A DNA stretch of 64,000 bases. It comes from an uncultured Paracoccaceae bacterium. GTDB lineage: Bacteria > Pseudomonadota > Alphaproteobacteria > Rhodobacterales > Rhodobacteraceae. The stretch covers positions 1,488,001-1,552,000 of the forward strand of contig CANNCO010000001.1 of the NCBI GenBank assembly GCA_947503175.1. The letters are read 5' to 3'. Shown here piece after piece: positions 41-40,154 of the stretch. The translations under genes and the position numbers were made by a program. The notes below the pieces were generated by a model, which saw nothing but the letters and a program-made list of their open reading frames with translations, did not search any database and was not told the origin of the DNA. The stretch's first letter is position 1; each line of letters starts with the position of its first letter.

Positions 41-250
41 ATGAGTGACGAAGACTTCAACATGTCGATGCGGAAATTCCTCAAGCAGGTGGGCGTCACC
101 TCGCAGCAGGAAATCGAACAGGCGGTACGCGCCGCGCAGGGTTCGGGTAAAATCTCCGGCGGGTCGGTCAAGGCGCGGATGGTTCTGACCATCGACGAGA
201 TCGGGATGAGCCACACGGTCGAAGGCGATATCAAGACCGGAGGCGCGTAA
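41..250 (+). CDS. DUF6494 family small protein
   Basis: A 69-residue acidic cytosolic protein with no signal peptide or membrane segment. It resembles the small DUF6494 proteins that sit before mrp/apbC in alphaproteobacteria; no biochemical function is known to me. A purine-rich ribosome site (GGGGAGAGGA) precedes the ATG. The stop codon is directly followed by the GTG start of the Mrp ATPase, so the two are almost certainly co-transcribed and translationally coupled. That position suggests an accessory role in iron-sulfur or cofactor-protein maturation, but this is inference from context only. The family name rests on recall of the sequence pattern. Confidence 0.75.
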   Translation: MSDEDFNMSMRKFLKQVGVTSQQEIEQAVRAAQGSGKISGGSVKARMVLTIDEIGMSHTVEGDIKTGGA

Positions 251-38454: not shown

Positions 38455-38482
38455 TTGCAATGACGCCCGCGTCGCCTAACTA
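38455..38482 (+). promoter_or_regulatory. Possible promoter for the ABC-F leader
   Basis: TTGCAA (38455-38460) and TAACTA (38477-38482) with a 16-base spacer lie about 18 bases before the leader hairpin. Transcription would start near 38489-38492, just upstream of the attenuator stem, which fits the proposed leader RNA. The match to consensus is moderate. Confidence 0.35.
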
Positions 38483-38499
38483 GACTACGAGACCAACAC

Positions 38500-38574
38500 G
38501 ACAGGAGCTTTGCTCGACATGGACATGAACCTCGCCGCCAGCCGCCATCCGGTTTCCCTGCGAGAAGTCCTGTC
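38500..38574 (+). promoter_or_regulatory. Leader hairpin enclosing the ABC-F ribosome site (putative translational attenuator)
   Basis: The right arm CGAGAAGTCCTGTC (38561-38574) pairs base for base over 14 bp with the left arm GACAGGA-CTT-CTCG (38500-38516, with one- and two-base bulges). The right arm contains the ABC-F Shine-Dalgarno GAGAAG and ends two bases before its ATG. The left arm contains AGGAG, the ribosome site of a 34-codon leader ORF whose first codons fill the loop. Ribosomes occupying or stalled on the leader would free the ABC-F start. Confidence 0.55.
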
Positions 38575-38623
38575 CCATGCCTGCATCTGTCACCCTGTCC
38601 GGCCTGTCCTGGTCCACACCTGA
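38519..38623 (+). CDS. Putative 34-residue leader peptide upstream of ABC-F
   Basis: A short ORF starting MDMNLAASRHPVSL, preceded by AGGAG 11 bases before its ATG, a better ribosome site than that of the ABC-F gene. It lies in the +1 frame relative to ABC-F and overlaps its first 47 bases, ending at TGA 38621-38623. Its first 14 codons lie in the loop of the 14-bp hairpin. Leader peptides of this sort control antibiotic-resistance ABC-F and erm genes by ribosome stalling; no stalling motif is recognised here, so the role is inferred from architecture alone. Confidence 0.4.
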   Translation: MDMNLAASRHPVSLREVLSHACICHPVRPVLVHT

Positions 38624-40154
38624 CGGCACCCCGCTTTTTACCGACCTGAACCTGAGCCTCGGGGCCGAACGCACCGGCATTGTTGGGCGCAATGGTACGG
38701 GCAAGACCACGCTTCTGCGGCTGATCGCCGGAGAGTTGCCCGCGGCATCGGGCCATGTGCAGGTGTCCGGCACGCTTGCGGTGCTGCGTCAGGATGTAGG
38801 GGCTCGGCCCGGCGAAACCATTGCCGATCTGTTCGGCGCGCAGCCTGCGCTTGACCTTCTCGACAGGGCCGAAGCGGGGCGTGCCGATGCCGATGAACTG
38901 GCCAGAGCCGATTGGGCACTGCCGGCCCGCATCGCGGCCGCGATGCTGCGATGCGGCCTGACAGGCGATCCGCGAACTCTCCTGTCGACCCTGTCCGGCG
39001 GGCAGCGCACCCGCGCCGCCCTTGCGGCCCTGACATTCGCCGATCCGGATTTCCTGCTGCTCGATGAACCTACAAACAATCTCGACCGGGACGGGCGTCA
39101 GGCCGTTACCGACCTGATCCGGGCGTGGCGGGGTGGCGCGATCATTGTCAGCCATGACCGCGCGCTGCTGGACGAGATGGATGCCATGATCGAACTGACC
39201 ACCATTGGCGTCACCCGATATGGCGGCAACTACAGCGATTTCCGGGCGCAGAAGGCGACGGAACTGGACGCGGCCCATCGGAGCCTTGCCAATGCCGAGA
39301 AGGACCGCGCCGAGATCGCACGGCGCGCCCAACAGGCGGCAGAGCGCAAGGCGCGCAAGGACAGCCGTGGGCGGAAAGCCCGCGCCAAAGGCGACCAGCC
39401 CAAGATTCTGATGGATGCCGCGAAAGAACGGTCAGAGGCATCGGGCAGCGCAAACACCCGCCTGCGCGAGGCACGGCGTGACGCTGCCGAAACCGCGCTT
39501 TCCGACGCGCGCGGCAAAATCGAAATCCTGCAAACCCTGCACATGGAGATCGGCTCGACCGGACTGCCGCGTGGTAAGACGGTGCTGCGGTTTGACGGGC
39601 TGACGGGCGGCCACGACCCGGCGCATCCCGTGATCCGCGATCTGTCGCTGACGATCACCGGGCCGGAGCGTATCGCAATCACCGGGCCGAACGGCAGCGG
39701 CAAGACGACCCTGCTGGCGCTGATCAGCGGCCAGCTTCAGCCGCAGCACGGTATGGCAGAAGTTCAGGTGCCCTTCACGCTTCTGGACCAGCATGTGAGC
39801 CTGCTGGATCCGGACCTCACGCTGCGCGAGAACTATCTGCGGCTGAACCCCGAAGCGCGGGAGAACGAGGCCCATTCAGCGCTGGCACGGTTCCGCTTTC
39901 GCGCAGAGGACGCGCTGCAAAGAGCCGGCAGTCTGAGCGGTGGTGAGAAATTGCGCGCGGGCCTTGCCTGTACGCTGGGACAACCCACACCACCTGCGCT
40001 TTTGATACTGGATGAGCCGACCAATCACCTTGACCTGGACGGGATCGAAGCGCTGGAAGACACGCTTGCGGCCTATGACGGCGCCCTGATCGTCGTCAGT
40101 CACGACGAACGGTTTCTGGAAAGCCTCGCCCCGGACCGACGACTGGAGTTGTAG
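38577..40154 (+). CDS. ABC-F family ATPase (soluble, two nucleotide-binding domains)
   Basis: A 525-residue cytosolic protein without membrane segments, with tandem ABC domains. The first Walker A is GRNGTGKTT (37-45), the signature LSGGQRTR and Walker B FLLLDEPTNNLD; the second Walker A is GPNGSGKTT (about 369-377), the signature LSGGEKLR and LLILDEPTNHLD. The interdomain linker (about 220-320) is long, charged and Arg/Lys/Glu-rich, like the ribosome-probing P-site tRNA interaction motif. ABC-F proteins act on ribosomes, as translation factors or antibiotic protection factors. The leader ORF and hairpin suggest inducible expression. Confidence 0.9.
   Translation: MPASVTLSGLSWSTPDGTPLFTDLNLSLGAERTGIVGRNGTGKTTLLRLIAGELPAASGHVQVSGTLAVLRQDVGARPGETIADLFGAQPALDLLDRAEAGRADADELARADWALPARIAAAMLRCGLTGDPRTLLSTLSGGQRTRAALAALTFADPDFLLLDEPTNNLDRDGRQAVTDLIRAWRGGAIIVSHDRALLDEMDAMIELTTIGVTRYGGNYSDFRAQKATELDAAHRSLANAEKDRAEIARRAQQAAERKARKDSRGRKARAKGDQPKILMDAAKERSEASGSANTRLREARRDAAETALSDARGKIEILQTLHMEIGSTGLPRGKTVLRFDGLTGGHDPAHPVIRDLSLTITGPERIAITGPNGSGKTTLLALISGQLQPQHGMAEVQVPFTLLDQHVSLLDPDLTLRENYLRLNPEARENEAHSALARFRFRAEDALQRAGSLSGGEKLRAGLACTLGQPTPPALLILDEPTNHLDLDGIEALEDTLAAYDGALIVVSHDERFLESLAPDRRLEL

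Follow-up and report, generated by a model that had tools for sequence, protein, structure and literature searches.

A candidate translational attenuator for start-arrested ribosomes upstream of alphaproteobacterial ABC-F genes

The ABC-F locus and its orthologues

The window, by which we mean the whole 64,000-nucleotide stretch of DNA analysed here, carries anmK (minus strand), tyrS (plus strand) and an ABC-F gene (38577-40154), in this order. The interval between tyrS and the ABC-F gene contains a promoter-like pair, an AGGAG and an ORF of 34 codons, which runs out of frame into the ABC-F gene and overlaps its start by 47 nt. An earlier note on this DNA, made from the sequence alone, had placed the AGGAG, the leader ORF, the GAGAAG and the ABC-F ATG exactly where we find them and had recognised the out-of-frame overlap. 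The features of the locus are:

38455-38482, plus strand: predicted promoter, with TTGCAA (38455-38460), a 16 nt spacer and TAACTA (38477-38482)
38503-38507, plus strand: AGGAG, the ribosome site of the leader, from the sequence
38518-38535, plus strand: 5' arm of the conserved stem (CAUGGACA, GA, CUCGC), comprising the leader start codon and codons 2-6; from folds, arm swaps and alignments
38519-38623, plus strand: leader ORF MDMNLAASRHPVSLREVLSHACICHPVRPVLVHT, ATG at 38519, TGA ending at 38623, 34 codons; start position and frame conserved
38560-38579, plus strand: 3' arm of the conserved stem, from the ABC-F ribosome site (GCGAG of GCGAGAAG) through the ATG; from folds, arm swaps and alignments
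38562-38567, plus strand: GAGAAG, the ribosome site of the ABC-F gene, from the sequence
38577-40154, plus strand: ABC-F ATPase, 525 aa, ATG at 38577, two NBDs and a two-helix linker (residues 219-318)
38619-38624, plus strand: ABC-F codons Pro15-Asp16 (CCT GAC), inside which lies the out-of-frame leader stop TGA (38621-38623); from the CCT bias

The structure of the ABC-F protein, which is predicted with confidence (pLDDT 90.3), has linker helices at residues 219-271 and 276-318. VgaL is the best structural match (Z 37.3, rmsd 4.8, 445 aligned), followed by VgaA-LC (35.7), VmlR2 (35.5) and Sal(B) (34.8), with EttA (34.4) close behind. Those that rank highest belong to the pleuromutilin-lincosamide-streptogramin A group of ABC-F resistance proteins. 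The best-scoring family is NCBIfam NF000355 (ribosomal protection-like ABC-F), at 351.5 bits and under the cut-off of 380.

We compared the window with a set of 175 alphaproteobacterial ABC-F orthologue loci, 36-73% identical. As these loci share ancestry, counts do not represent independent events, and the p values given below overstate independence. Orthologues occur patchily: within the family, 24 of 394 genera have one, within the class 19 of 385 genomes, and within the order of G751 86 of 397 genomes. Among the named relatives are Paracoccus, Thioclava, Gemmobacter, Neorhizobium, Sinorhizobium and Azospirillum plasmids. Such a distribution fits an accessory gene and proves nothing about the putative resistance. 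The leader travels with the ABC-F gene, since the neighbouring genes vary among loci. Judged by these comparisons, the element formed by leader and stem is spread across Alphaproteobacteria and is particular neither to the source organism nor to Roseobacters.

Most loci (149/175) belong to an overlap class, in which an ATG leader ORF crosses the ABC-F start. The conservation of the leader frame, for which the earlier note had proposed to look in relatives, is evident here, with 147 of the 149 sharing one frame. The remaining loci comprise one overlap-class leader with a TTG start, 16 short leaders, three start-stop leaders and six loci without a leader; these classes were hand-corrected, and L136, L174, L222 and L256-L260 were assigned by hand. 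Short leaders include some of three codons (MDK and MRK, in L138/L139 and L141) and others of seven codons, MDCAPAS among them. L256-L260 have a different leader, a 9-codon ORF (MKHQATATA, MKQQASATA and similar) ~90-110 nt upstream, which is followed by GC-rich palindromes and is closer to a classical erm-type attenuator. In Paracoccus aminophilus (L170:1456-1501), the ABC-F start is annotated at 1456, near the leader and 45 nt 5' of where the orthologue match begins. Genome G125 has, in addition to an intact ABC-F copy, a second copy (C12:295792-297063) that is broken by two TGA and one TAG.

Frame and stop codon of the leader ORF

The predicted transcription start (~38489) is located 30 nt 5' of the leader ATG in the window sequence. 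It thus falls upstream and not downstream of 38516, as the attenuator proposed in the earlier note would demand. Among 92 non-redundant orthologues, 36 have a strict TTGnnn-N16-18-TAnnnT pattern just 5' of the leader ATG, vs 0.8% in shuffles. The window's own -10, TAACTA, fails this pattern. In the orthologues, the predicted start mostly lies 21-30 nt before the leader ATG, at about 25 nt. The leader also appears to have its own ribosome site, with an SD-like 4-mer in 80% of 111 non-redundant leaders vs 20% in a background window.

When ATGs are counted by position and without selection, they peak at -61/-58/-55/-52 (157 in the 175 orthologues), and few ATGs occur in other frames at equal distance from the ABC-F start. 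On the ABC-F protein tree, 30 of 31 spacing changes within the overlap class are multiples of three. With a frame-blind choice of ATG the figure is 30 of 35; a tie of the ATG at -55 with that at -51 accounts for the four additional changes. The frame is not kept among short and start-stop leaders.

The leader stop sits at +45..47, where the Pro and Asp codons of the T-P-D-G motif of the ABC-F protein contain it as CC[T GA]C. In 120 of 123 overlap-class genes this Pro codon is CCT, vs 7.6% of the Pro codons elsewhere in those genes (z 38.8); in the non-redundant set the figures are 98.8% and 7.5%. Given the kinship of the loci, the strongest control for this bias is the contrast between leader classes: where the leader ends early, is reduced to AUG-stop or is missing, only 2 of 15 loci have CCT at that position. 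Synonymous choices that would stop the leader at +5 to +38 are shunned (1 seen vs 11.1 expected), and those that place the stop at +41/+44 are used (127/133). Most overlap-class leaders stop at +41..+50 inside the ABC-F gene; short and start-stop leaders do not. In L193, L194 and L207 the leaders have shrunk to AUG-UAA or AUG-UGA; the stem is retained, and the ABC-F Pro codon is CCC or CCG, not CCT.

The conserved frame and the CCT bias together argue that ribosomes translate the leader across the ABC-F start and that selection acts on the leader stop. We consider the selected CCT stop strong evidence, obtained from sequence only, for a leader that is read through a gene start. ATG, SD, frame and selected out-of-frame stop thus point to a translated upstream ORF with its own ribosome site, as is typical of ribosome-mediated attenuators. 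Codon-position counts across the orthologues reveal no third-position excess in the leader ORF, which means that the leader is not conserved as a peptide. We also considered the open leader frame as evidence of translation and dropped it, as another frame is equally open (0.85 for the leader vs 0.88).

The clade that has lost the leader comprises five loci (L173, L174, L175, L177 and L220), which come from S. meliloti, S. medicae, Azospirillum oryzae and a further genome. In each of the five, a divergent TetR gene, orthologous among them, lies beside the ABC-F gene, and in four a palindrome around CAGCACG...CGTGCTG, with perfect arms of 10-12 nt, occupies the position of the leader. In L177, a perfect palindrome was not found at this position. 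No other locus has a match to the TetR gene, with 55 loci viewed only to 300 nt upstream. L140 (37% identity), which has no recognisable leader and no TetR match, stands outside this group of five. On sequence grounds, a TetR gene in place of the leader fits a regulatory role for the leader.

The conserved stem and its modelled opening

In the window, the stem consists of the pairs 38518-38525/38571-38579, 38527-38528/38568-38569 and 38531-38535 (CUCGC)/38560-38564 (GCGAG). By summed pairing probabilities, the start codons of the leader and the ABC-F gene face each other (CAUG with CAUG), and the ABC-F ribosome site faces leader codons 2-8. Folds of the window (L001) cut to the element have a z of -2.52, and the mean z over 92 non-redundant leaders is -2.50. 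The fold of the whole region (186 nt) is unremarkable and uninformative (z -0.59).

When arms were swapped between unlike leaders, native arms pair at -18.8 vs -12.0 kcal/mol for swapped arms (Wilcoxon p=3e-16), and a control arm in the same test shows no pairing preference. The window's own arms rank just 0.13 against swapped arms, and the case for the stem rests on the family. In a gapless alignment of 27 Rhizobiales-type leaders, 88% of the cells pair and 13 two-sided changes occur. The covariation score of this alignment is 0.160 vs 0.123 +- 0.007 in shuffled alignments, and none of 500 shuffles reach it. The Paracoccaceae-type alignment A3 has 14 pairs, of which just three have two-sided changes, because these leaders are too alike. 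Aligning leaders that differ in length with MAFFT put the 3' arm out of register, and RNAalifold gave 3 pairs; the gapless sets were used instead. Searched against 199 genomes at E<1e-3, a covariance model of the Rhizobiales-type leader matches solely directly before ABC-F genes. Hits of the model in G929 and G992 are not followed by an ABC-F gene, and we take them as chance. Rfam returned no match to the leader at gathering score or up to E=1. Folds, arm swaps and covariation thus point to a conserved stem in which the leader start codon and first codons are paired with the ABC-F ribosome site and start codon.

This is not the helix of the earlier note, which had paired 38500-38516 with 38561-38574 and had left the first 14 leader codons as the loop. 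That helix can be drawn here and in L004, yet it is not the minimum-energy leader fold and it is not conserved (native -8.9 vs swapped arms -9.2 kcal/mol, p=0.97). As the conserved stem joins 38518-38535 with 38560-38579, the first leader codons lie in the stem and not in a loop. The attenuator reading itself was largely right: a translated leader and a stem that hides the ABC-F ribosome site both find support. Pairing is conserved in relatives, although in a different helix from the one proposed.

That the stem would come apart under a ribosome held on the leader also finds support in the models. In the window, opening -20..+3 of the ABC-F gene is predicted to cost 17.3 kcal/mol in the free RNA and 5.6 when a ribosome occupies the leader AUG, a drop of 11.7. 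The modelled family mean is 16.6 kcal/mol, and 7.0 once a ribosome is placed on the leader start; the drop is at least 3 kcal/mol in 89 of 92 leaders. Control blocks placed elsewhere gave no comparable opening of the ABC-F site in the models. Of 283 genes taken from 400 kb of this genome, 39 are overlapped out of frame by an ORF with an ATG at -70..-45, four with an SD-like site; this base rate is approximate because gene starts were taken as the first ATG. In none of the 283 would a ribosome on such an ATG make the main site cheaper to open by at least 8 kcal/mol. A hidden site that is freed by a ribosome on the upstream ORF, as in ribosome-mediated attenuators, is therefore what the models predict. 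They also bury the leader's own ribosome site about as deeply as the main one (16.2 vs 16.6 kcal/mol), which counts against the attenuator reading; we assume that the leader is first loaded co-transcriptionally, before the 3' arm exists.

The stem persists with leaders of three and seven codons and with start-stop leaders (AUG-UAA/UGA). An initiating ribosome at the leader start is therefore the common denominator of the leader classes.

A possible sensor of arrested ribosomes

Taken together, we propose that the element is probably a ribosome-sensing translational attenuator for the ABC-F gene, triggered by arrest at or near the leader start. Sequence comparison grounds leader translation through the ABC-F start, the selection on the stop, the stem with its covariation and the fixed 5' position. 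Transcription would begin ~25-30 nt 5' of the leader ORF. At rest, one stem would pair the leader start region with the ABC-F ribosome site and start codon. Running leader ribosomes would pass over the ABC-F start, cover it and end ~45 nt past it, upon which the stem would re-close and ABC-F output would stay low. This traffic would explain why the frame is kept only where the leader overlaps, and why the leader stop lies beyond and not near the ABC-F start; the reason for a stop at exactly ~45 nt is less certain.

The trigger would be a ribosome held at the leader start or within a few codons of it. We infer arrest as the signal; it may be caused by drugs of the pleuromutilin, lincosamide or streptogramin A type, which block the first peptide bonds, and the ABC-F protein may protect against these drugs. 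An arrested ribosome would sit on the 5' arm and off the ABC-F site, which, according to the models, would open. The ABC-F protein would then be translated and relieve the arrest. The earlier note had suggested that heavy occupancy of the leader could also expose the ABC-F start. This would not help, because ribosomes on the overlapping ORF cover the ABC-F site; the sequence evidence points instead to arrest at or next to the leader start.

The main rival, with a distance very similar to that of the leader, is coupling of the kind found between the coat and lysis genes of phage MS2. Here, the leader would terminate ~45 nt inside the ABC-F gene and the ribosome would reinitiate backwards on the hidden start, which would give a low constitutive level without sensing. 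The two arrangements share a hairpin-hidden downstream start in an upstream frame that ends 38-50 nt past it. The overlap of 44-50 nt is very near the coat-lysis spacing of MS2 (-50 nt) and fr (-38 nt) (PMC12548453), the leader stop position is under selection, and an upstream frame that ends ~40-50 nt inside a hidden gene is found in most overlap-class loci. However, the phage upstream frame is a real protein gene whose termination activates the downstream one (PMC12548453), whereas a ribosome that terminates at +47 of the ABC-F gene leaves both arms of the stem free to re-pair. Although such coupling works best over short distances, leader stops close to the ABC-F start are shunned (1 vs 11.1 expected). 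Short and start-stop leaders retain the stem without the geometry for coupling, and coupling gives no reason for the replacement by TetR. We thus regard it as unlikely.

Control of transcription by the leader, through Rho-dependent or intrinsic termination, appears very unlikely. A precedent exists in the uORF of the S. meliloti DUF1127 gene, which is alphaproteobacterial, responds to impaired translation initiation and works via transcription attenuation (PMC12218461); attenuation of Gram-positive ABC-F genes is also often transcriptional (PMC12421871). The S. meliloti case nevertheless concerns another gene and a 29-aa uORF well upstream, and in our leader it is the ribosome site and start codon of the ABC-F gene that the conserved stem covers, and no U-tract follows the stem. 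A translational attenuator would still leave room for Rho to act once translation is repressed, as in topAI. We give hardly any weight to an arrest of the ermC or msrD type, in which the leader peptide together with a drug would stall the ribosome at a defined codon. Leader peptides are alike within clades (MDxTLAAFxPSVSLREVLSHAC; MDFxPTAxPIRLAxGEI), but the common residues coincide with the stem arms and the ABC-F ribosome site. Synonymous changes are not in excess in the leader, no conserved motif of the kind expected for peptide-specific arrest emerges, and variants of three codons, seven codons and start-stop exist.

The best reading is hence a start-arrest translational attenuator in a new architecture. 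We see about an even chance for the broader proposal of a class-wide sensor of ribosomes arrested on a start codon. Here, only initiation on the leader would matter (down to AUG-stop), the two start codons would lie face to face in one stem, and the overlap with its purpose-made stop would let running ribosomes repress and arrested ribosomes induce.

ABC-F attenuators have been described in Gram-positive bacteria for vmlR (PMC9226507), cplR, vmlR2 and lsaA (PMC10201436), tiaA and are5sc (PMC12421871) and msrD (PMC10314930). In vmlR, are5sc and tiaA, lincosamide, pleuromutilin or streptogramin A drugs cause start-proximal arrest (PMC9226507, PMC12421871). These systems and our leader have in common a uORF 5' of the ABC-F gene. 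In contrast to the overlapping leader with a single stem on the ribosome site, the Gram-positive uORFs are short and well upstream, and mostly act by terminator and antiterminator. The leader tripeptides MDK (L138/L139) and MRK (L141) are the same as uORF peptides of vmlR, where both are natural variants that support lincomycin induction in B. subtilis (PMC9226507).

The E. coli toiL-topAI system offers a Gram-negative parallel. Here, the uORF and the main ribosome site also lie in one repressive hairpin, and stalling at the start codon relieves the repression (PMC12121999). Ribosome profiling places tetracycline-stalled ribosomes at the uORF start codon, and retapamulin is inferred to act likewise (PMC12121999). 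It differs in serving a toxin-antitoxin operon, as opposed to an ABC-F gene across a whole class. In the passages of that paper on which we draw, a conserved overlap with a selected out-of-frame stop is not described (PMC12121999). In our leader, moreover, the two start codons pair with each other.

In the open-licence literature searched, we found no paper on this leader, which would be the first ABC-F attenuator outside Gram-positive bacteria in those papers. The element, which Rfam lacks, spans a Gram-negative class with plant symbionts and marine and soil bacteria among its members. Its architecture separates arrest on a start codon from peptide-specific arrest as the sensed event, and ties an uncharacterised ABC-F group, in a testable manner, to drugs that prevent formation of the first peptide bonds.

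The logic of start-arrest sensing may extend to related actinobacterial genes. Actinomycetota relatives (L036, L037, L041 and L370-L373, from Streptomyces and Saccharopolyspora) have an upstream GTG-containing segment, GTGGTGCTCGC or GGTGTCTCG, without an obvious SD. This segment pairs with the ABC-F ribosome site in several folds, and these relatives possibly follow the same logic as the alphaproteobacterial leader. On two Streptomyces plasmids (L372 and L373), the related ABC-F gene adjoins a virginiamycin B lyase gene, a neighbour that hints at streptogramins as the drug.
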